Of a stretch of DNA of 64,000 bases, positions 14,931 to 37,280 are shown one piece after another (the stretch's first letter is position 1; each line of letters opens with the position of its first letter). Made by a program: the position numbers and the translations under genes. Location of the stretch: positions 124,001 to 188,000 of the forward strand of contig JAGPUW010000029.1 in the NCBI GenBank assembly GCA_018069465.1, read 5' to 3'. Below the pieces are notes generated by a model. That model was not told the origin of the DNA and searched no databases. It saw only the letters and a program-made list of their open reading frames with translations. The stretch is from Gammaproteobacteria bacterium. GTDB taxonomy: Bacteria; Pseudomonadota; Gammaproteobacteria; Pseudomonadales; Porticoccaceae.

Positions 14931-15020
14931 TAGCGCACCCACTCTAAACCACCCCGTTAGCCCTCGCCGTGCGGATTTTCATACAGGCGCTTGTGATGGG
15001 CGTCCTAACTAAACTTGGCG
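14931..15020 (+). repeat. island repeat copy R4
   Basis: A shorter, more diverged copy: GCACCCACTCTAAACCACCC, GTTAGCCCTCGCCGTGCGGA, GGCGCTTGTGATGGG and CGTCCTAACTAAAC. Like R1 it lacks the segment around CTCCCTAGG. It borders the methyltransferase promoter region on its left side. Confidence 0.8.
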
Positions 15021-15076
15021 TTAAAGCGAAAAAGAAGACACGGAGAAAATTTCCGTCTGGTTACATTTGCTCGGGC

Positions 15077-15104
15077 TTGACCTGCTTATATGCACAGCTA
15101 TAAT
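15077..15104 (+). promoter_or_regulatory. sigma-70-type promoter of the methyltransferase
   Basis: TTGACC (15077-15082), a 16-bp spacer and a perfect TATAAT (15099-15104) lie 35 bp upstream of the methyltransferase ATG. The element sits between repeat R4 and the gene, so the system appears to bring its own promoter. Confidence 0.7.
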
Positions 15105-15139
15105 GGTACTTACTGTAGGTTTCGATAAGGAAACTCAAA

Positions 15140-16561
15140 ATGAGTACCGAAATTACCACCAAAGACGCTGCAAATCAATTAAGTATAAGCGAACAGCGGG
15201 TAAGAACCTTATGCAGAACAAGTGATTTGGATGCTAGAAAAATCGGAAACTCTTGGGTTATCACCCAGAAAAGTTTGGATGTATACGGGCTAAAAACAGC
15301 ACACAAAGTAGCAGAAGACCATCCAGCCTACAATGTGGGTAAGAAAAAACCAATAGCTTTAAGCTTTTTTTCAGGTGCAATGGGGCTTGACTTAGGTATA
15401 GAAAAAGCAGGTTTTGATATTCGACTTGCATGTGAAGTAGATAAATTTTGCCGCCAAACTATAGCTTTAAATAGGCCTGATACAGCTTTGTTAACGGACA
15501 TCAATCAATACGCCGCTAGTGATGTTAGAAAAGCCGCTGGCTTAGCTAAAGGCGATGATGTTGACCTAATAATGGGAGGGCCCCCATGCCAAGCGTTTAG
15601 TACTGCTGGAAAAAGAAAAGGTCTGGAAGATGAGCGGGGAAATGTATTTATTAAGTATATTGATCTAGCTCTAGAATTAAATCCAAAATATTTTATAATT
15701 GAAAATGTACGAGGTTTGCTTTCTTGCCCAATGATGCATAGGCCTCACGATCAAAGGGGCAGCAAATTCCCTGATCTTTGTGAAGATGAACTTAAAGGAG
15801 GGGCTCTAAATTTTATTATAAATAGGCTAGAAAATTCCGGCTATGGCTATTCATTTAATTTGTATAACTCAGCAAACTTTGGAACACCTCAGGTAAGAGA
15901 AAGGGTAATTATTGTTTGCTCTCGTAACGGACGTAAACCACCATTTCTAACACCTACTCACTCCGAAAATCCCGAGCATGGCCTACCAAAATGGAATACA
16001 GTAAAAGGCTGTATTGCTAAGCTAACAGAGCACAATCATCTAAACTTTCCAGAGAAGCGCCTCAAGTATTATAGACTACTTAAATCCGGACAAAATTGGA
16101 AAAACTTACCTATAGATTTACAGAAAAAAGCCATGGGTAAATCTTATTATTCTGGCGGCGGAAAAACAGGTTTTTTGAGGCGACTAGGATGGGACAAGCC
16201 TTCCCCGACATTAGTGACTCATCCGACTATGCCTGCAACAGACCTTGCTCACCCGGAAGAAGATCGACCACTTTCGGTTGAGGAGTACAAGAGAATTCAG
16301 GAGTTCCCTGACTCATGGGATCTTGCAGGGCCGATTATTCAACAGTATAAACAGGTCGGCAATGCCGTACCTTTAAGTCTTGGTCATGCTGTAGGTAAAT
16401 TGATTTTTAACTTGTTGCATGAAATAGAAACATTACCTTTCAATAACTTCAAATATTCACGATACAAGCACACGAGCGATTCTGACTGGAGAGCGCAATT
16501 TGATAGAGAGATTTTTGCACATCAAGTAAAGCCAGAACAGCACGAATTAGGATTTGGCTGA
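15140..16561 (+). CDS. DNA (cytosine-5) methyltransferase with N-terminal HTH
   Basis: A 473-residue C5-cytosine methyltransferase, the modification half of a type II system. An N-terminal helix-turn-helix (about 5-50, [20 protein letters not shown]) resembles MerR/excisionase DNA-binding segments and could make it autoregulatory. Catalytic motifs follow: I at 74-83 ([10 protein letters not shown]), IV at 146-154 with catalytic Cys150 (GGPPCQAFS), VI (IIENVRGLL, about 186-194), VIII (QVRERVIIV) and X ([13 protein letters not shown]). AAGGA precedes the ATG. The gene is visibly more AT-rich than its neighbours, a sign of transfer. The partner nuclease suggests a SinI-like GGWCC specificity; this is inference. 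Confidence 0.92.
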
Positions 16562-16582
16562 AAGACAACCCCTAATTCATTC

Positions 16583-17313
16583 TTAGCTCCAAGGATTATT
16601 TGGCTCTACAGCTAGACAACCTGGATTAAACGAAATAGTTTCACGAACAAACCACACAAAAGATTCCTCAGATAAAGTTGCTGTACCGCATATTTCATTT
16701 AAAGATTCCCACATATACTCAATTCTGCCTGCTTTAATCCGAAACCATTTTTCTATTTCCGTCCCATTACGAACAGCACTACTTGAACTGTTTTCCGAAT
16801 TACTACGATTTTTTATCTGCAGTAGGCGACCACTCTCATGGACAAAGTCAACAGACTTAACAGTTTCACCCCAAGCACAATGCCACCCAAATCCGCGAAG
16901 ATTTTCAGACAAATATTCTTCCAAAATCAAACCAAGTATATTTTCAGCAGACATTCCAAGCCGGTGAGCATAGGTGATTTTATTTAAGTCATCACAGCTT
17001 AACTTCTTTATTCTAGCACCAATTATTCCTTCTATTATCGGATCAGCCACTGTCCCAGGGAGATTCGACACTCGATTACTAGCGCGCCCATTCTTACCTC
17101 CTTCATATTTTAAAAGCCATTTTTTATAACGGAGTTTTCATCATCTCTATTGCCGCCAATATTGCCTGGCACTCTTTCGAGATCATTTGCTATCACATGA
17201 AAAACAAAAGATACCCCATCATTCCAGCGGATATTATTCTCCTCGGCTACACGCATAGCTGTAGCTATTGATTGAGCTGTGCCAAGATTTTTAATTGCTT
17301 GTTTTAACTTCAA
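16583..17313 (-). pseudogene. SinI-like type II restriction endonuclease, frameshifted
   Basis: Two overlapping minus-strand frames make one gene. The first, from ATG 17311-17313, encodes about 67 residues (KLKQAIKNLGTAQSIATAMR ... DENSVIKNGF) and stops at 17110. The second continues in the -1 frame as YKKWLLKYEGGKN and NLPGTVADPIIEGIIG, then runs to the stop at 16583. The switch lies at an A6 run (17120-17125, T6 on the plus strand). One extra A would join them into about 244 residues, close to the ~230 of SinI-family enzymes. The core VDFVHESGRLLQIK fits a variant PD-(D/E/Q)xK site, and NSENSSSSAVRNGTEIEKWF looks family-specific. It converges on the methyltransferase 21 bp away. Options are inactivation, slippage-controlled expression or a sequencing error. 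Confidence 0.65.
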
Positions 17314-18515: not shown

Positions 18516-19421
18516 CTACTGCCTCCGCGCCGCTTCCAGCTGCTGACAAAGAATTTCCGCCCCCTGCAACAATCTCGGGCTGTGGCGCACGAGCAGGTCG
18601 GGGGGCAGAAAGTAAAGCCGATCTGTTTTTACGGCGTCTATCATCGGCCAGGCGCGCCATTGCTTGAGCACGCGGGCGCGCTCTCCCTGTGTGCCGCTGG
18701 CCACCATCAACTGCGGATTCGCGGCAATCACTGACTCGGCACTGAGCTTCGGCACCAGTGCCGGGGCATCGGCAAAGACATTGCGCCCGCCGCAGAGTTG
18801 GATCACTTCCGACACCAAATGCTGGCCATTGAGCGTTAACAGGGGGTCATCCCACACCTGATAAAACACCGACAGTGGCTGCCGTCCGCTGTAGCGACGG
18901 CGCAGGTCTGCCAGTGTTTGTCGGTATTGTGCCGCCGCCTGCGCGCCCTGTTCTGCTGTGCCCGCCAACTGGCCCAGCCCCTCGATAGTGGTCGCAATAT
19001 CGTCGAGGCCCGCCGGGGCATCGACATATACGTTTAAGCCCAGTGCCTTGAGGCGCGCAATCATTTGCGGGCCATTGCCACTTTGCCAAACCAGCACTAA
19101 ATCTGGCGCGAGGCCGACAATGGCCTCGTAGCTGATGGCATTATTGGAGCCGATGCGGGGGATTTTTAGGGCCTCGGACGGGTAGTCGCTGTAGTCCACG
19201 GTGGCGACTATTTGGCCACCGGCACCGGCGGTAAACAGTAGCTCGGTAAGGTGGGGGGCGAGGCTGATAATACGCCGCGCGGGCTGGGCCAGTTGCACGC
19301 TTGCACCGCTGCCGTCGATAACACTAACAGCGGCTTGAATCGGTGGGCAGCTTAGCCCCAATAATGTTGCCAGCCAGTAGCTCGCCCACAAAATACGCTT
19401 TAGCTTTGCCCTGACTTTCAT
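18516..19421 (-). CDS. btuF: cobalamin-binding periplasmic protein, first tandem copy
   Basis: A 301-residue periplasmic B12-binding protein with a signal peptide (about 1-30, ending PIQAA). Core motifs are RRIISLAPHLTELLFTAGAG, TVDYSDYPSEALKIPRIG, AISYEAIVGLAPDLVLVW, YQVWDDPLLTLNGQHL and LCGGRNVFADAPALVPKLS. Its ATG overlaps the btuD stop by four bases (ATGA), showing translational coupling. The second copy lies 86 bp downstream. Either copy could be the main B12 binder; a split between cobalamin and cobinamide or other corrinoids is possible but not shown. Confidence 0.88.
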   Translation of the reverse strand: MKVRAKLKRILWASYWLATLLGLSCPPIQAAVSVIDGSGASVQLAQPARRIISLAPHLTELLFTAGAGGQIVATVDYSDYPSEALKIPRIGSNNAISYEAIVGLAPDLVLVWQSGNGPQMIARLKALGLNVYVDAPAGLDDIATTIEGLGQLAGTAEQGAQAAAQYRQTLADLRRRYSGRQPLSVFYQVWDDPLLTLNGQHLVSEVIQLCGGRNVFADAPALVPKLSAESVIAANPQLMVASGTQGERARVLKQWRAWPMIDAVKTDRLYFLPPDLLVRHSPRLLQGAEILCQQLEAARRQ

Positions 19422-20215
19422 CTTAGCTTTTTATCACTTTCATTCTGTATCACCAGTGGCGCGCCACTTTGCGGGTGGGCGAGCAGCTGCACATCGACAT
19501 CAAACACCGCTTTCACCGCCGCGACTGTCAACACTTCGGCGGGTGGGCCGCTGGCGACCACTTCGCCTGCGCGCATCAGCAACAGGCGGTCGGCACAGCG
19601 CGCCGCTAAATTCAGATCGTGAACCACCAGACACACGCCCACCCCCTCGGCGGCAAAGCCTTTGACCACGTCCAGCAATAGCGCTTGATGGGCGAGGTCG
19701 AGGGAGGCCGTGGGTTCATCCAGCAGTAAGTAGCGCTCGCCGTGGGCCGAGGGCTGCCATATTTGCGCCAGCACTCGGGCCAGATGCACGCGCTGCTGCT
19801 CGCCACCCGACAGGTCGGTGTAACAACGGCCGCGCAAATGCCCGCTATCGACGGCGGCTAGAGCGGCGCTAACAATTTGCTGATCGCGCTGACGACCGCT
19901 GGCGTGGGGGCTGCGGCCCAGGGCCACGACATCTTCCACGGCAAAGGCAAAGTTCAGACTAGAGTGCTGGGGCAAGACCGCGAGGGTTTGGGCGCGATCT
20001 TGTGCTCGCCACTGTGACAGCTCGCGCCCATTCAAACTCACCCCGCCGCTACTCGGGCGAACGTCAGCACTTAAGAGGCGCAGTAAGCTGGTTTTACCCG
20101 CACCATTGGGCCCGCAAATCGCGGTAATCTCGCCGCCCTTTAAGGTCAGGCTGGTCGGCTGTAAGAGCACGCTTTTACCGACACGCAAAGTGGCCGCCGC
20201 TGTGTTTAAACTCAT
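19418..20215 (-). CDS. btuD: cobalamin ABC transporter ATP-binding protein
   Basis: A 265-residue ABC ATPase of the iron-siderophore/B12 class. The ATG at 20213-20215 lies one base after the btuC stop and starts the protein at the family N-terminus; a longer frame would translate btuC in another frame. Walker A (GPNGAGKTSLL), the Q-loop (AVLPQHSSL), the signature (DLSGGEQQRVHLARVLA), Walker B (YLLLDEPTASLD) and the switch His (CLVVHDLNLA) are all intact. With BtuC and BtuF it powers B12 import across the inner membrane. Confidence 0.92.
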   Translation of the reverse strand: MSLNTAAATLRVGKSVLLQPTSLTLKGGEITAICGPNGAGKTSLLRLLSADVRPSSGGVSLNGRELSQWRAQDRAQTLAVLPQHSSLNFAFAVEDVVALGRSPHASGRQRDQQIVSAALAAVDSGHLRGRCYTDLSGGEQQRVHLARVLAQIWQPSAHGERYLLLDEPTASLDLAHQALLLDVVKGFAAEGVGVCLVVHDLNLAARCADRLLLMRAGEVVASGPPAEVLTVAAVKAVFDVDVQLLAHPQSGAPLVIQNESDKKLR

Positions 20216-20216
20216 A

Positions 20217-21338
20217 CTAAGCCGCCGTCCGGCGCTGGCGGGCCAGCAGTGAAAAGAAAAACGGCACGCCGAGCAGGGCGGTGACAATGCCCACCGGCAA
20301 CTCAGCCGGGGCCACCACCAACCGGGACAGGGTATCGGCAAACACTAGCAAGCTAGCACCCAGCAGGGCCGAAGCGGGTAGCAAATAGCGGTGATCGGGA
20401 CCGATAACCAGCCGCACAATATGCGGCACCACCAGCCCGACGAAGGCGATGGCCCCCGCCACCGCGACCGAAACGCCAATACCGAGGGCGGTGAGCAGCA
20501 CCACCCGGCGCTTCAGGTGTTCGACATCGATGCCCAGAAAGCGCGCCTCCGACTCGCCCAGCAGCAAGGCATTCAGCGCCCGGCTCTGGCCCAGCAAGCC
20601 AGCCAGCAGCAGCGCCAGCGCCGTGCCCGCCATCCACACTCGCGGCCAGTTGGCACCGTCGAGCCGGCCCATTTGCCAGAGGCTAATGCGCCGTAGCATT
20701 TCGTTGTCGGCATAAAAACTGAGCAGACTATTGCCCGCCCCCGCCAGTGCGCTAATGGCAATGCCCGCCAGCAGCATGGTCGCCACCGAGGTGCCCGAGC
20801 TTGAATTGCCGCCGCCCGTCGCCAGCCGATACACCACCAGCACCGCCAACGAACCGCCGATAAAGGCACCACCGGCCATTAGCGGCAGGCCCAGCGCCTC
20901 GGGCAACACGGCCTGGGAGAGCACGGTCTGAGACAAGTGGCCCAGCGTGCCGCCCGGCAACAATACGCCAGCCGTAAAAATCATCAGGCTGGCGCCAAGA
21001 GAGGCCCCCGCCGATACGCCGATCAGGGAGGGGTCGGCCAGTGGATTGCGAAACAAGCCCTGCATCGCCGCCCCGCAAAGGGCCAGACTGGCACCGACCA
21101 GAGCGGCGAGTAACATGCGCGGCAGGCGAATCGCGGAGACGATCAATAGATCGCGCTGCAAGCCCTCACTCGTTTGAACAGTAAAACCAAAAACAGTCGC
21201 CAGGCCATCCAGTAGGCTTGAAAGCGGGATGGACACCGGCCCGAGCATAGCCCCACTCAACATCGCCACCACAAGCAGTACCAAGCCTGAGCACAGCAAC
21301 ATTTTTGGCGAACACAGGCGCAAGTCAGTTAGCCTCAT
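20217..21338 (-). CDS. btuC: cobalamin ABC transporter permease (FecCD family)
   Basis: A 373-residue polytopic permease with about ten membrane helices. FecCD marks include [47 protein letters not shown] (listed here only as a landmark spanning about 70-116), the coupling region [16 protein letters not shown], and [21 protein letters not shown] near the C-terminus. It overlaps the cobQ end by 14 bp and is followed immediately by btuD, so the three are one transcription unit. Confidence 0.9.
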
Positions 21339-27186: not shown

Positions 27187-28950
27187 ATGGCGCAAACAGT
27201 AATGGCTGTAATGGAGGCTAGCGCCGCTAAAGGCGCAGCACTGCCTGCATTGCGAACAAAAAATCACGGCCAGTGGCAGACCACTACCTGGGCTGAATAT
27301 CGCGCCGAAACCCGACTCGTCGCTCGGGCCTTGATGGCCCTTGGCCTCGGCCCCAAAGAGGGCGTCATCATTATTGCGGAGAACTGCCACCAGTGGTTTA
27401 TTGGCAATATCGCCGCCATTTATAGCGGTGCGATACCGGTCGGCATTTACACCACCAGTAGCCCCGAACAATGCCAGTACATCGCTGAAAACTGCGATGC
27501 AAGGATCGCCATCGTTGATAATAGTGCGCAACTGGCCAAGCTTAAGGCCATTGCCGAGCAGCTACCCAAACTGCGAGCCATCGTGATGATAAAAGGTGGG
27601 GATAGCGCAGAGCACATACACAGCTGGGACGAACTGCCCGAGCTCGCCGAACACGTGTCGGAGCAAGCACTCGATGAACGCATTAAGGCCCGGCAGCCCG
27701 AGGACATCTGTACGCTAATTTACACCTCGGGCACCACTGGCAAGCCAAAGGGCGTGATGCTCAGCCACAGCAACCTTACCTGGATGGCCCAAAATAGCGT
27801 TGAAACGTATCACTGCAACTCCGATGAGCGCATCATCAGCTATCTGCCCCTAAGCCATATCGCCGAGCAAATATTCAGCCTCTATATACCGCTGTATTGT
27901 GGCGGCTGCACCTCCTTCGCTGAAAGCCTTGGTTTACTCGGCAACAACCTGCGCGAAGTTCGCCCTACCAGTTTTGTTGCCGTACCCCGAGTATGGGAAA
28001 AAATTCAAAGCAAAATGCTCATCGCCGGTAACGCCAGCCCGCCACTGCGCAAAAAAGTGGTCGCCTGGGCACGAAACTTAGGTCTTGCCGGTGGTTATGC
28101 ACTACAACAAAACAGGACTCCGCCCTTATTTTACAAGCTCGCCGAGAGGCTTGTTTTCTCCAAAATTAGGCGCGAGCTAGGCTTTGATCGCTGTCGCAAC
28201 CTGCTCTCTTCTGCGGCACCGATTTCCATCGACACACTGGAGTTCTTTCTCAGCCTGGGTCTGCCCATCTGCGAAATCTACGGCATGAGTGAATGCTCTG
28301 GCCCCGCGACCGTCGGTCTTGCCAATAATTACCACACCGACAAACTGGGGCTCTGTCTTCCCGGTGCAGAAATGCGTATCGCGCAAGACGGCGAAATACT
28401 GATGCGCGGCCCCCATATTTTTGCCGGTTACATAAAGAATGAGGCCGCCACCCGCGCAGCCATCGACAGTGATGGCTGGCTGCACACCGAAGATATCGGC
28501 ACAATTGATAGCCATGGTTTCCTGCAAGTCACCGCTCGCAAGAAAGACCTTATCATTACCTCCAGCGGCGAAAATATCGCCCCACAACTTTTGGAAGGCA
28601 AAATAAAAGCGCTTAGCGCCGTCAGCCAGGTTGTGGTGATTGGCGACCAGCGTAAATACCTGACCGCCCTCATCACGCTTGATCCCGAAACTCTGGATAG
28701 CACACTAGGCTGCGCGGGTAGCCAAGCGATGGGGCTAGAGGCGGCGGCGCAGTGCAAGCAGTTACAAGGCTATCTTCAGCAACAAATTAACGCCATTAAT
28801 AAAAACCTGGCCCAGGTGCAGAGCATAAAAAAATTCACTATTCTGGCTGATGATTTCAGCATTGCAGGCGACGAACTAACCCCGACCATGAAGATAAAGC
28901 GCAATATCGTCAGTCTTAAATATCAGGCACAAATTAGTGCCATGTATTAA
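27187..28950 (+). CDS. long-chain acyl-CoA synthetase, bubblegum-like, copy 1
   Basis: A 587-residue AMP-forming ligase that activates fatty acids to CoA thioesters. The phosphate loop TLIYTSGTTGKPKGVMLSH (about 178-196), the central EIYGMSE, GWLHTEDIG and the catalytic-lysine region LTPTMKIKRN are intact. Segments such as WFIGNIAAIYSGAIPVGIYT and SPEQCQYIAENCDA are typical of the bubblegum/FadD15 branch. A second copy of similar length lies 3.1 kb away on the same strand with the NarK- and TauE-like genes between. Chain length and the reason for duplication are unknown. Confidence 0.9.
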   Translation: MAQTVMAVMEASAAKGAALPALRTKNHGQWQTTTWAEYRAETRLVARALMALGLGPKEGVIIIAENCHQWFIGNIAAIYSGAIPVGIYTTSSPEQCQYIAENCDARIAIVDNSAQLAKLKAIAEQLPKLRAIVMIKGGDSAEHIHSWDELPELAEHVSEQALDERIKARQPEDICTLIYTSGTTGKPKGVMLSHSNLTWMAQNSVETYHCNSDERIISYLPLSHIAEQIFSLYIPLYCGGCTSFAESLGLLGNNLREVRPTSFVAVPRVWEKIQSKMLIAGNASPPLRKKVVAWARNLGLAGGYALQQNRTPPLFYKLAERLVFSKIRRELGFDRCRNLLSSAAPISIDTLEFFLSLGLPICEIYGMSECSGPATVGLANNYHTDKLGLCLPGAEMRIAQDGEILMRGPHIFAGYIKNEAATRAAIDSDGWLHTEDIGTIDSHGFLQVTARKKDLIITSSGENIAPQLLEGKIKALSAVSQVVVIGDQRKYLTALITLDPETLDSTLGCAGSQAMGLEAAAQCKQLQGYLQQQINAINKNLAQVQSIKKFTILADDFSIAGDELTPTMKIKRNIVSLKYQAQISAMY

Positions 28951-32059: not shown

Positions 32060-33847
32060 ATGACCAGCACTGTTATGGAAGCAATGGATACTTGTGCTGC
32101 GAAATTTGCAGCCTTGCCCGCGCTAAGATCGAAGATCAAGGGCCAATGGCAGACCGTCACCTGGGCAGAGTATCACGCCCAAATCCGCTTAGTAGCCCGG
32201 GCAATGATGGCCCTTGGCCTGGCGCCGAAAGAGGGTCTTGCCATTATCGGCAACAACTGTCCCCAGTGGTTTATTGCCAATAATGCGGCCATCTACAGCG
32301 GGGCGCTGCCAGCAGGCATTTACGCCACCAACAGCCCTGAGCAATGTCACTATATCGCTGAAAACTGCGACGCGACTATCGCCGTCGTTGAAAACAGCGA
32401 ACAACTGGGGAAGTTCCAAGTCATTGCACATCGGCTGCCCAAGTTGAAAGCCATTATCGTGATGACCGAGAGGGTCGATACCTCGGTGAATAGCGCCGCC
32501 ACTCCGCAACAGATTGTCGCCTGGAAGGATCTTCCCGCGCTTGCCCAGCAGGTTTCTGAAGAAGCGCTAGACTCTCGCATTAAGGCGCAAACAGCGGATG
32601 ACATTTGCACGCTTATTTACACTTCGGGAACCACCGGCAACCCAAAGGGGGTGATGCTCAGTCATCGAAATCTGACCTGGTCAAGCAAAACGGCGATTGA
32701 CTTTTTCGCCCTCACATCCGACGACCGCGTTATCAGCTATCTACCACTGAGTCATATCGCCGAACAAATCTTTACTCTCCACATGCCTATGTACTCCGGC
32801 GGCTGTACCTCCTTCGCTGAAAGCTTAGACCTGCTCGGCGATAACCTTCGCGAAGTAAGGCCGACTCGTTTCTTAGGTGTACCAAGAGTCTGGGAGAAGA
32901 TTCAAGCCAAAATAGTCGCCGCTGGCCAGGCCAGTCCACCGCAGCGCAAAAAAATCGTCGCATGGGCACGCAAACAGGGCCTTGCCGGCGGCTACGCCAA
33001 ACAGCAAGGCCAATCACTACCGTTATTTTTTGGTGTCGCCAATAAACTGGTTTTTTCAAAAGTCAGACAGCAACTCGGCTTCGACCGATGCCTTCATCTG
33101 CTGACCGGTGCCGCCCCTATTTCACTCGATACTCTGGAATTTTTTCTGAGCCTGGGCCTACCCGTTTGCGAAATCTACGGCATGAGCGAATCCTCGGGCC
33201 TGGCCAGCATTTCCCTCGCCAATGACTGTCGCACCGGTAAACTGGGTCGCGCCATCCCCGGCACTGAGATGCGCATCGCCGCAGATGGCGAAATCCTGCT
33301 GCGCGGCCCTCACGTCTTTGCGGGCTATCTTAAAAAGCCAGCCGCTACTAGCGAAACGATTGATAGCGAAGGCTGGCTGCACTCTGGCGATCTCGGCGAC
33401 ATTAATAGCGAGGGCTACCTGCAAATAACCGGCAGGAAAAAAGATATTATCATTACCTCTGGCGGTGAAAATATCGCACCGCAACTATTGGAAGGAAAAA
33501 TAAAAGCCATTGCCGCCATTAGCCAGGTCGTGGTTATCGGCGATCAACGCAAGTACCTCACCGCCCTGATTACCCTCAATGCAGAAACCTTAGACAGTGA
33601 GCTGGTCTATGCTGGCAGCCCGGCCTGTGGGGCGGCAGAAGCGGCAAGCTGCGACAAAATGCTCGCCTACCTGCAAAGCCAAATTGATGACGTTAATAAA
33701 AGCCTCGCCCAGGTTCAGACCATTAAAAAGTTCACCGTATTAACGGCAGACTTTAGTATTGAAGGCGATGAATTGACCCCGACCATGAAAGTAAAACGCA
33801 ATGTCGTCAGTATTAAGTACGAAGCAGAAATTGCGGCCATGTATTAA
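32060..33847 (+). CDS. long-chain acyl-CoA synthetase, bubblegum-like, copy 2
   Basis: A 595-residue paralogue of the synthetase at 27187-28950, colinear throughout. The phosphate loop TLIYTSGTTGNPKGVMLSH, EIYGMSESSGLAS, GWLHSGDLGD and LTPTMKVKRN are intact, so both copies look active. AAGGAGG precedes the ATG. It is eight residues longer, mainly through a short insertion near residue 137 (VDTSVNSAATPQQ). The likely role is fatty acid activation feeding beta-oxidation such as the operon at 43.5-48.6 kb. Confidence 0.9.
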   Translation: MTSTVMEAMDTCAAKFAALPALRSKIKGQWQTVTWAEYHAQIRLVARAMMALGLAPKEGLAIIGNNCPQWFIANNAAIYSGALPAGIYATNSPEQCHYIAENCDATIAVVENSEQLGKFQVIAHRLPKLKAIIVMTERVDTSVNSAATPQQIVAWKDLPALAQQVSEEALDSRIKAQTADDICTLIYTSGTTGNPKGVMLSHRNLTWSSKTAIDFFALTSDDRVISYLPLSHIAEQIFTLHMPMYSGGCTSFAESLDLLGDNLREVRPTRFLGVPRVWEKIQAKIVAAGQASPPQRKKIVAWARKQGLAGGYAKQQGQSLPLFFGVANKLVFSKVRQQLGFDRCLHLLTGAAPISLDTLEFFLSLGLPVCEIYGMSESSGLASISLANDCRTGKLGRAIPGTEMRIAADGEILLRGPHVFAGYLKKPAATSETIDSEGWLHSGDLGDINSEGYLQITGRKKDIIITSGGENIAPQLLEGKIKAIAAISQVVVIGDQRKYLTALITLNAETLDSELVYAGSPACGAAEAASCDKMLAYLQSQIDDVNKSLAQVQTIKKFTVLTADFSIEGDELTPTMKVKRNVVSIKYEAEIAAMY

Positions 33848-34000: not shown

Positions 34001-35374
34001 CTAAAAATCAAAAATATCCAGCGCTTCACTCAATTTATGCACCGCAATCACTTCCATGCCGTCAATTGGCTGACGCGGGGCGTTGCCCGCTGGCACGATG
34101 GCACGCTTAAAGCCGTGCTTGGCCGCTTCGCGCAAACGCTCCTGACCGCTGGGCACCGGACGAATTTCACCGGACAGACCCACCTCGCCAAACACCATCA
34201 AGTCACGAGACAGAGGGCTATCGCGAAAGCTGGATACCACCGCGAGTATCAGCGCCAGATCGGCACTGGGCTCCAGTACTTTGACGCCACCGACGACGTT
34301 AACAAAGACATCCTGATCACCCACCATTAAACCGCCGTGGCGATGTAGTACTGCCAGCAGCATCGCCAGTCGGTTGTGATCCAGGCCAACAGTGACACGT
34401 CGTGGATTGCCGAGACTGCTGTCGTCGACCAGAGCCTGAATTTCCACCAGTAGCGGGCGAGTACCCTCCCACACCACCATCACCACGCTGCCCGAGGCGA
34501 TTTCTTCCCCGCGCTGCAAAAAAATAGCCGAGGGATTGGCGACTTCTTTTAAGCCCTGCTCTGTCATCGCAAACACGCCCAGCTCGTTAACCGCGCCAAA
34601 GCGGTTTTTGTGGCTGCGCAGGGTGCGAAAACGGGTATCGGCGGTGCCTTCGAGCATCAGTGAGCAGTCGATCATATGTTCCAGTACTTTCGGCCCGGCC
34701 AGTGAGCCCTCTTTGGTGACGTGGCCCACCAGCAGCAAAATAATGCCGTTCTGTTTTGCCAGGCGAATCAACAGCGCTGCACTCTCGCGCACCTGGGAAA
34801 CACTGCCCGGCGCCGAACTGATATCTTCGCAGTGCATCACTTGAATGGAGTCGACCACCAGTATTTTTGGCCGCTGGCGCTGCGCCGTGGCACACACCGT
34901 TTCGGCTGAAGTCTCCGCCATAATATTGACTTTATGGGTCGGCAGGCCAAGGCGCTTGGCCCGCATGGCGACCTGCTGGGGCGACTCTTCTCCGGTGACA
35001 TAAAGACAGCTGTGGCTCTGCGCCAGGTGACAGAGAGTTTGCAGTAGAAGGGTACTTTTACCCGCCCCCGGCTCACCGCCGATCAACACGCAGCTGCCCG
35101 TCACCAGCCCGCCACCGAGCACCAGATCAAACTCACCGGCACCGGTGGCAATACGCGGCAACTCGTCAATTTCAATATCCGACAGCAAGCTGACATCACC
35201 ACCCACAGCCCCGGAATAGCCACTGCGGCCCCCACCTGAGGGCGCTTTGACGACAGCCATGCGCACTTCACTGAGGGTGTTCCAGGTGTTGCACTCACTG
35301 CACTGGCCCTGCCATTTTGTATAATCTGCGCCGCAATCGTTGCAAACGTAAGCCGAGCTTTTCTTTTTTGCCAC
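34001..35374 (-). CDS. radA: DNA repair protein RadA
   Basis: A 457-residue RecA-like branch-migration ATPase. An N-terminal zinc finger (CNDCGADYTKWQGQCSEC, about 11-28) is followed by Walker A (GGEPGAGKSTLL) and Walker B-like ILVVDSIQVM. The RadA-specific KNRFG appears in LRSHKNRFGAVNELGVF. A Lon-protease-like C-terminal domain contains VNVVGGVKVLEPSADLALI. Length and motif order are standard. RadA processes recombination intermediates. Its neighbour on the other strand is a primosome-related pair. Confidence 0.96.
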   Translation of the reverse strand: MAKKKSSAYVCNDCGADYTKWQGQCSECNTWNTLSEVRMAVVKAPSGGGRSGYSGAVGGDVSLLSDIEIDELPRIATGAGEFDLVLGGGLVTGSCVLIGGEPGAGKSTLLLQTLCHLAQSHSCLYVTGEESPQQVAMRAKRLGLPTHKVNIMAETSAETVCATAQRQRPKILVVDSIQVMHCEDISSAPGSVSQVRESAALLIRLAKQNGIILLLVGHVTKEGSLAGPKVLEHMIDCSLMLEGTADTRFRTLRSHKNRFGAVNELGVFAMTEQGLKEVANPSAIFLQRGEEIASGSVVMVVWEGTRPLLVEIQALVDDSSLGNPRRVTVGLDHNRLAMLLAVLHRHGGLMVGDQDVFVNVVGGVKVLEPSADLALILAVVSSFRDSPLSRDLMVFGEVGLSGEIRPVPSGQERLREAAKHGFKRAIVPAGNAPRQPIDGMEVIAVHKLSEALDIFDF

Positions 35375-35527: not shown

Positions 35528-36718
35528 ATGTCACTGATCCCCGAAAAACCCCTGCTTTTTTACCCCCAGCTCGCCGCTGCGCTGGGTCTTGAGGAGGCTG
35601 TCATGGTGCAAACCCTGAAAGCCTTTATCGAGTACGGCGAAGGCGATAGCCAGCACGGTTTTACGTGGTTCGAGGCCAGTGCCGACAAACTTTTACAAAC
35701 CCTGCCCTTCTGGCAGGAGGCCGATATTCAACGCATCAGCGCCAACCTGCGTGAGCAGGGCATATTGCTGATCGGTGCCCAGACCTTTCAGCAGGGTGAA
35801 CGCTTTCGCTTTGCTATTAATGAACAAGACGCCAACGTGGCGTCAGCGCAAACAGCGGCAAGCCCACAGCCACAGCCAAACCCTCCCTTAAGCACGGCGC
35901 CACTAGCCCCCCCCGTAAGGGCAATCGCCCCTGCGGCTGCGGTGCAAAGGGCACAGGCTATTACCAAAGGCTGGCAGCCAGAAAACGACTTGCTCGCCCA
36001 GCTCGCCCAGTACGGTATTCCCCAGGACTTTGCCCTGCAGCAGGTCGGCGAGTTTGTCACCTACTGGACCGAGCGCAATGAGCCTCGCTATAGCTGGGGC
36101 TCGCGCTATCTCAAACACGTCCTGCGCCTGTGGCGTCAGCAGGAAACCCGCAGCGCGCGCCAAAGCAAAGAAGTGGCGATGAGTGAGGGCTGGCAACCGA
36201 GCATCGATGCCCTCGACATTCTCACCGTGCAGGCGGGCATTAATCGCAACTTTGTCGAAGATGCCATTCCCGAATTCATCCTTTACTGGCAGGAGCGCGG
36301 CACCAATTCCAGCACCTGGAATTCGCGCTTTATTCAACACATCAAACGCCAGTGGGCGAGCTACACCCACACCCTGCAAATGGATACCACACCACGCCCT
36401 ATCAGCGACAGCTGGCAGCCCGATGAAACCGTTTTCGACATTTTGAAAATGGGTAATATCGACCGCCACTTTGCACAAAACCTGGTGCCCGAATTTATTG
36501 TCTACTGGAAGGACAGCGGCCATCTGGTCAGCTCGTGGAATACCAAGTTTCTCCAGTTTGCGAAAAAACAATGGGCCTACACTCACCAGCAGGCGGTCAA
36601 CACTGCCGACACCAACACAATGACGCACAGCCATGGCAAACAACGATCTGATCGACCAAGTAGTACACGACATAGAAACCTTACCGAAGAGCTCAGCGAC
36701 CGCAGCTGGGCAAGCTGA
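35528..36718 (+). CDS. DnaT-like protein with three DNA-binding repeats
   Basis: A 396-residue protein. Residues 1-100 form a winged-helix-like N-terminal region, followed by a Pro/Ala-rich linker (about 105-145). Three copies of the DnaT C-terminal DNA-binding domain follow at about 148-203, 221-278 and 296-351. Each has a W-Q-P start, a middle V/I-P/G-E-F-x-x-Y-W and a basic R/K-rich end after a W-x-x-x-Y/F. E. coli DnaT carries one such domain and loads the replisome at restart. The product probably binds single-stranded DNA during primosome assembly. Its 3' end overlaps the lambda-P-like gene by 86 bp. Whether the copies bind co-operatively is unknown. Confidence 0.8.
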   Translation: MSLIPEKPLLFYPQLAAALGLEEAVMVQTLKAFIEYGEGDSQHGFTWFEASADKLLQTLPFWQEADIQRISANLREQGILLIGAQTFQQGERFRFAINEQDANVASAQTAASPQPQPNPPLSTAPLAPPVRAIAPAAAVQRAQAITKGWQPENDLLAQLAQYGIPQDFALQQVGEFVTYWTERNEPRYSWGSRYLKHVLRLWRQQETRSARQSKEVAMSEGWQPSIDALDILTVQAGINRNFVEDAIPEFILYWQERGTNSSTWNSRFIQHIKRQWASYTHTLQMDTTPRPISDSWQPDETVFDILKMGNIDRHFAQNLVPEFIVYWKDSGHLVSSWNTKFLQFAKKQWAYTHQQAVNTADTNTMTHSHGKQRSDRPSSTRHRNLTEELSDRSWAS

Positions 36719-37280
36719 AGACGATGCTCTGGTAGACACCATTAACCAGATCTTTGCCCTCTTTCGGATAAATTTTCACAACCAGTTTTACGCCGCTTTC
36801 AACGACACCTCTTTGCTCAACCAGGCAAAGCGCCTGTGGCTCGATGCGCTGCGCAACTACCCGGTGGAATATTTGCTACTCGGTGCGCGACAAATTATCG
36901 AGCAGTCGGAATACCTGCCCACCCTGCAAAAAATGATCAGCTGCTGCGATGATCAGGGCTCGCGTATCGGCCTGCCCACCCCCCGCGATGCCTATCTGCA
37001 AGCCTGTCTTGCGCCCCACCCCAAAGCCGCACACAACTGGCGCCACCCTGCCGTTTATTTTGCCGGGCAAAAAACCGGCTGGTTTGATCTGGAAAACCAC
37101 AACGAAAAAACCACCTGGCCCATCTTTAAGCGCCACTATGAAGAGCTGCGGCGCAAAGTGCTGTGTGGAGAAAATCTCAAAATTGAAGTGCCGCCTGAAT
37201 TACCCCCACCCGGTAAACCCCAGTCTAAAGACGAACGGCTTAAACAAATGCAGGCGCTGCGTAGCAAGTTGGACTTATAG
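36633..37280 (+). CDS. lambda replication protein P-like helicase loader
   Basis: A 215-residue protein resembling phage lambda P, which loads DnaB helicase. The central helical part (LFRINFHNQFYAAF, LWLDALRNYPVEYLLLGARQ) and the C-terminal block LPTLQKMISCCDDQG, RDAYLQACLA, HPAVYFAGQKTGWFDL fit that family. Chromosomal copies occur in some gammaproteobacteria without a prophage. It starts inside the DnaT-like gene in another frame, with no clear ribosome-binding site, so translation is probably coupled. With the DnaT-like protein it would form a DnaB-loading module. No other phage genes adjoin it. Confidence 0.75.
   Translation: MANNDLIDQVVHDIETLPKSSATAAGQAEDDALVDTINQIFALFRINFHNQFYAAFNDTSLLNQAKRLWLDALRNYPVEYLLLGARQIIEQSEYLPTLQKMISCCDDQGSRIGLPTPRDAYLQACLAPHPKAAHNWRHPAVYFAGQKTGWFDLENHNEKTTWPIFKRHYEELRRKVLCGENLKIEVPPELPPPGKPQSKDERLKQMQALRSKLDL

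Follow-up and report, generated by a model that had tools for sequence, protein, structure and literature searches.

Among the described systems for loading the replicative helicase, the closest to the locus studied here is the DopC/DopE pair of Cellvibrionales, an adjacent chromosomal gene pair with a lambda-P homologue, found in an order without DnaC/DnaI and DciA. The names dopC and dopE are reportedly those of Brezellec et al. 2017 (Genome Biol Evol 9:1561), and the pair is said to be in print for Cellvibrionales. DopC-DopE is the least studied bacterial helicase-loading system. A full-text literature search, whose reach did not extend to Brezellec 2017, returned no description of tandem DnaT domains.

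Three other systems are useful for comparison. In the mature preprimosome of Escherichia coli, four C-terminal domains of DnaT (primosomal protein i) are described as forming a filament on lagging-strand ssDNA, which PriB hands over to DnaT during filament growth (PMC13377028). Raised DnaT can bypass PriB, and residues F124, Y127, W128 and K143 are all placed in its ssDNA site (PMC4132743). In phage lambda, the C-terminal region of O is held to bind P, and O without its last five residues is reported to be inactive (PMC6022878). Finally, DciA (DUF721) is described as acting in replication initiation, and the Cellvibrionales as lacking dnaC/dnaI as well as dciA (PMC5109545). DopE is counted among the helicase-loader families in a mention of the 'DciA or DopE protein families' (PMC13326638).

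Here, we analysed a window of 64,000 nucleotides, the whole stretch of contig shown above, and compared a gene pair within it to these systems. The pair is in all probability a copy of DopC-DopE, judging by its sequence, and would be the resident helicase loader of the bacterium. DopC-DopE is plausibly of phage origin, and its predicted role in these marine bacteria is to load the replication helicase onto their chromosome. The pair is already known as DopC/DopE; our additions are distribution counts, an old triplication of the DnaT domain, a C-terminal tail and mobile elements that lack P.

The dopC-dopE locus and its chromosomal setting

The gene dopC (35528..36718, forward strand) encodes a protein of 396 aa that consists of a winged helix, three DnaT domains, a linker and a tail. 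Its 3' end overlaps the 5' end of dopE (36633..37280, forward strand, 215 aa) by 86 bp (36633..36718, same strand), and an overlap of comparable size was present in most homologous loci. A lambda-P-family gene thus lies directly downstream of a DnaT/O-like gene, as in DopC/DopE of Cellvibrionales. The nearest named relatives of DopC (best 80 of 510 confirmed relatives) share 79-85% identity with it and come from Cellvibrionales, Porticoccaceae or unplaced Gammaproteobacteria. On this basis the genome probably belongs with Porticoccaceae/Cellvibrionales.

DopE is a helicase loader of the lambda-P family, matching PF06992 with 39.4 bits (cut-off 26) and the 'P-like helicase loader' family phrog_109 with an E-value of 4e-21. 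When its AlphaFold model (mean pLDDT 80.2) was compared to the PDB, the lambda-P chains of 9oa1 (DnaB-lambda P) took ranks 1-3 with E-values of 3.5e-5 to 3.8e-4. The initial annotation had described an 86 bp overlap with a lambda P homologue, and both the coordinates and strand and the family assignment proved right. The pair resembles lambda O and P in the fold and family of P, in the O-P gene order and in a similar O tail, whereas the body of DopC is made of DnaT repeats and has no O-family Pfam match. We consider it very likely that DopE and DopC form a helicase loader, which is predicted to load DnaB at initiation.

Ten flanking proteins were scanned, of which nine belong to metabolic, transport or sensory families and one has no family; none is phage-like. 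These flanks include AMP-ligases, MFS and TauE transporters, SDRs, a sensor kinase, MscS and a thiolase. The family-matched neighbour radA (34001..35374, reverse strand) adjoins the pair in divergent orientation, and its adjacency had been correctly noted before. Among 80 named loci examined, radA was divergent upstream in all 69 where tblastn detected it, at a distance of no more than 252 bp in 36 of these. Applying a 40% coverage filter left radA in 67 of the 80 loci, and six loci had more than 1.6 kb upstream without radA. In 20 larger regions hand-picked from other families, radA was near the pair in 9 of the 12 regions with two to four domains and in none of the 8 with one.

Several other features of the window were observed. 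Two AMP-binding (acyl-CoA-synthetase-like) paralogues of similar length lie a few genes apart at 27187-28947 and 32060-33844. Positions 15001-17000, over an ORF at 15140-16561, have a G+C of 0.40 compared to 0.50-0.60 in most of the window and may be acquired DNA. The window's top G+C (0.64) occurs at 20001-21000 together with a strong AT skew (0.278), beside the overlapping ORFs 19418-20341 and 20217-21338.

Purifying selection acts on both dopC and dopE, with dN/dS values outside the overlap of 0.09-0.13 (6 pairs) and 0.04-0.07 (3 pairs), respectively. A prophage or its remnant, serving phage replication only, could also bring together a DopE of the lambda-P family and a lambdoid O-P gene order. 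This is highly improbable given the flanks without phage-like proteins, the divergent radA upstream and the presence of the pair in 148 of 244 genomes of the order at low dN/dS. The conserved chromosomal context and a near-exclusive distribution with DciA (see below) led us to drop the prophage reading; non-phage flanks, purifying selection and the lack of DciA or DnaC matches in the genome all argue that the pair is not in a prophage. DopC/DopE is a resident chromosomal pair that is vertically kept.

Distribution relative to DciA, DnaC and PriB

The genome that contains the window comprises 3.6 Mb in 49 contigs and is 97.6% complete, so gene absences in it are not absolute. Profile searches of this genome identified no DciA, no PriB over the cut-off and no IstB/DnaC-profile match over the cut-off; the only two IstB/DnaC-profile matches were sub-cut-off and recognisable by eye as DnaA and Lon. 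A PF17948 search found no second DnaT beyond dopC. By these searches, the host resembles those of the described DopC/DopE in being without DciA and DnaC/DnaI, and unlike E. coli, where DnaT works with PriB and DnaC, it has neither of these over the cut-off. The initial annotation had proposed a chromosomal helicase-loader pair, to be checked by looking for dnaT and dnaC elsewhere in the genome. The outcome, together with the non-phage flanks, supports that proposal, and we did not encounter the combination named as speaking against it, canonical dnaT and dnaC together with a prophage context.

Among 244 genomes of the order, DnaT-domain matches were found in 148, DopE in 151 and DciA in 76. 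We did not use absences of PF06992, because the PF06992 search of the window's own genome missed its dopE, which an alignment of DopE recovered. All 148 genomes with DnaT domains also contained DopE, and one of them contained DciA. This genome (G231), the only one with both systems, encodes a DnaT protein without the tail. The three genomes with DopE and without DnaT domains all carry DciA. Fisher's test for DnaT versus DciA yielded 4e-42, which overstates the association because the genomes are related and the co-occurrence counts are not phylogenetically independent. DciA is the alternative in the order, and it is DciA that the pair replaces, rather than the DnaT/DnaC suggested earlier. DciA occupies the same place in related genomes, although it has no sequence relation to the pair.

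PriB was detected over the cut-off in 26 of the 244 genomes and in none of the 148 with DnaT domains; weaker PriB matches, in larger frames, are probably SSB. Neither system was found by these searches in 21 of the 244 genomes, eight of which have PriB. Such genomes, for example those of family f43 (G043, G080, G109), may have a divergent DciA or another loader.

In a class-wide sample of 369 genomes, DnaT domains were found in nine others. Five of these nine encode two or three DnaT domains without a match to DciA, and four of the five show both a P-like ORF and a tail-like end. Four genomes of 0.9-1.5 Mb outside the order (G251, G278, G422, G528) likewise combine two or three DnaT domains with no match to DciA, and three of four small-genome loci (L271, L276, L272, L274) have a P-like ORF.

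DnaT repeats of DopC and their proposed use at oriC and forks

The three tandem DnaT domains claimed by the initial annotation were confirmed by Pfam, which identified three stretches of PF17948 (221.9 bits for the protein, cut-off 25). In the genome profile search, domain 1 (35954..36151), domain 2 (36176..36373) and domain 3 (36398..36592), all on the forward strand, scored 71.0, 92.9 and 79.4 bits, far above chance. PF17948 was the sole Pfam match at E-values up to 1, with no O-family DNA-binding domain in DopC. The NCBIfam equivalog model for DnaT scored DopC at 16.4 bits, below its cut-off of 201, and a profile search retrieved DnaT at an E-value of 0.0074. E. coli DnaT has one such domain compared to three in DopC, and its own partner is DnaC instead of a P protein.

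The N-terminus of DopC, unmentioned in the initial annotation, matches phrog_6493 'DnaD-like helicase loader' over residues 2-84 (E-value 2e-7). We assign to it a DnaD/plasmid-RepA-like winged helix (35531..35818, forward strand, approximately residues 2-97). The AF2 model has a pLDDT of about 90 across residues 20-100, and the best PDB matches of the winged helix are N-terminal domains of plasmid initiators and DnaD, although these are weak with E-values of 0.05 and above. The pTM of the DopC model (0.41) means that it gives no domain arrangement, and a FoldSeek search with it returned nothing under an E-value of 0.001.

The DopC domains keep the F/Y/W/K residues of the ssDNA-binding domain of E. 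coli DnaT: F124, Y127, W128 and K143 correspond to F, Y, W and K/R in each of the three domains of the window protein, while K133, F135 and R146 are mostly lost in the DopC domains. The Tyr-Trp pair of domain 1 is lost in 3 of 24 representatives. Three DnaT domains were found in all 80 named DopC proteins, compared to one, two or four in other families. A single-domain tree of 24 hand-picked representatives grouped domain 3 in one clade (24/24, support 0.98), and likewise domain 2 (24/24, 0.84) and most copies of domain 1 (21/24, 0.75). Some single-domain, four-domain and viral copies fall within these positional clades. The domains are thus orthologous by position, which places the triplication before the split of these families. 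By position-specific profiles, single-DnaT families match domain 1 best (14/14), a weak result given that this domain has the most variable of the profiles.

From the domains, residues, tail and distribution seen in the sequences, we infer the following binding steps. DopE would hold and open the DnaB ring, as lambda P does, while the three joined DnaT domains would coat ssDNA exposed at oriC and probably at collapsed forks. A single DopC chain could then stand in for the polymer that several DnaT molecules build in E. coli, and its tail would capture DopE-DnaB in the manner proposed for P-DnaB and the C-terminal region of lambda O. It is likely that the three repeats represent a pre-joined ssDNA filament. 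Three joined domains without PriB fit the E. coli picture of a DnaT filament, and their union in one chain may be why PriB was not seen in these genomes. They would be a natural DnaT filament of fixed length, suited to testing what length loads DnaB.

We think it reasonably likely that the pair is used at restart as well as at oriC. DnaD acts as a DnaA-side adaptor, and the DnaD-like winged helix of DopC resembles one, so DopCE might instead act only at oriC, with DnaA recruiting it via the winged helix, and have no part in fork restart. The absence of PriB, which hands ssDNA to DnaT in E. coli, from genomes with the pair would agree with this, as would the fact that the pair takes the place of DciA, described as a replication-initiation factor (PMC5109545). 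Conversely, the E. coli protein with a DnaT domain functions in restart, according to PMC13377028. Viral contigs of Mu type carry DnaT domains derived from DopC (see below). Mu replication in E. coli runs through PriA-dependent restart. An action at oriC alone therefore seems unlikely to us, and a use at both sites, with the restart role deduced indirectly, is the preferred reading.

The C-terminal tail of DopC and P-less mobile elements

A variable linker precedes the C-terminal end of DopC, which reads L-x-D-R-S-W-A. The tail of the window protein, EELSDRSWAS (36686..36715, forward strand, residues 387-396), is coded within the overlap and is a proposed docking peptide. A D.[SN]W pattern occurs within the last 20 aa at all 80 named DopC loci, and AF2 places short helices here at low confidence. 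Many single-DnaT families end in DTDW and others in the LTDTSWADGL type. The C-terminus of lambda O (KLDLTNTDWIYGVDL) resembles the DopC tail, and the five-residue truncation of O spares the motif and takes the residues just behind it. E. coli DnaT, which works with DnaC, has no tail of the DopC type at its end.

Viral DopE-like loci (57 of 80 examined) formed 41 clusters, of which 34 had a candidate gene before P. This gene had a tail-like motif in 13 of the 34 clusters compared to 1 of 690 control ORFs. The other 21 had no motif by this test, in part because the longest ORF may be the wrong gene. Four loci (L164-L167) combine P with a DnaT protein that lacks the motif. The negative-control set of genes before viral DnaC homologues consisted of one locus.

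These observations suggest, with fair probability, that the tail is the docking site for DopE. Short acidic-aromatic ends like this one are found in several partner-binding peptides, and the tail could thus bind another partner (DnaB, SSB or PriA) or serve DopC self-assembly. We regard this as the less probable explanation, since the motif is enriched before viral P genes, is missing from E. coli DnaT, and is common to lambda O, which is held to contact P through its C-terminal region (PMC6022878). If the tail is a dock for DopE, replication initiation of a whole order would rest on a short peptide-loader contact, one common to phage lambda and still exploited by phages. At 36633-36710, an invariant Gly within a T-x-A-G-like motif (DopE residues 17-26) lies in a low-confidence N-terminal stretch of DopE, a possible partner site for the DopC tail.

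We found no phage with three DnaT domains. Of 50,697 'phages' records, 46 match DopC, none over 80% of its length, and all 40 matches listed are confined to its first 103 residues or fewer. Five IMG/VR records, with two DnaT domains each, were identified by the DopC profile. The earlier suggestion that the pair was taken from a phage is therefore plausible for DopE, as a member of the lambda-P family, and for the tail; a phage origin of the triple-DnaT protein was not found, and the two-domain viral copies look like captures of host DopC.

Five viral contigs (L149-L153), found by the DopC profile and DnaT-domain patterns and not by the tail, encode two DnaT domains and a DopC-type tail. No DopE match was found in these records, which may be fragments, and this search had no positive control, though its query matched in 151 genomes. 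GemA of Mu follows the DnaT gene in all three contigs tested (L150, L152, L153), and L152 also encodes an AAA protein and a transposase-like protein, the latter just below the Pfam cut-off. Position-specific profiles assigned the domains of L150, L151 and L152 to DopC domains 1 and 2 (margins 10-21 bits) and those of L149 to domains 2 and 3 (23-25 bits), while the second domain of L153 was equivocal. These viral domains have the appearance of pieces captured from a host DopC.

Two further elements have a known host. In G029, a DnaT protein by a serine recombinase ends in ESLTDRSWAKD, the host DopC in RLTDRSWAAG, and the genome has one DopE. In G177, which has exactly one DopE, two tails (MDVGNTDW and MNVGDMDW) were seen on a lambda-O-like protein encoded near a CI-type repressor, compared to MDIKDTDW on the host DopC. 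These seven mobile-element DnaT proteins, for which no P gene was detected, have a DopC-type tail, which is of the host's type in both cases with a known host. With host-tail matrices, the seven scored 19-25 bits with one host type and <4 with the other, while 21 proteins with their own P, chosen largely for ending in a motif, scored at most 16.5 bits. Of 153 control segments, which include the motif-ending proteins themselves, three reached 12 bits or more. Two DnaT proteins with neither motif nor P in the locus (L168, L169) count against the tail idea. Additional scans for relatives of the two prophage-type proteins found four distant loci for one and none for the other.

On balance, the tail sequences lean towards a lineage-specific dock for DopE-DnaB, with P-less elements hijacking the host loader via a host-type tail and at least two having recaptured pieces of DopC. 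The recaptured pieces look like domains 1-2 with the tail in Mu-type contigs and domains 2-3 with the tail in another. Two genomes of family f35, G034 and G128 (loci L046, L050 and L255), had four and six matches to DnaT and five and ten to DopE, respectively, many of them phage-type or duplicated pairs beside the resident pair.
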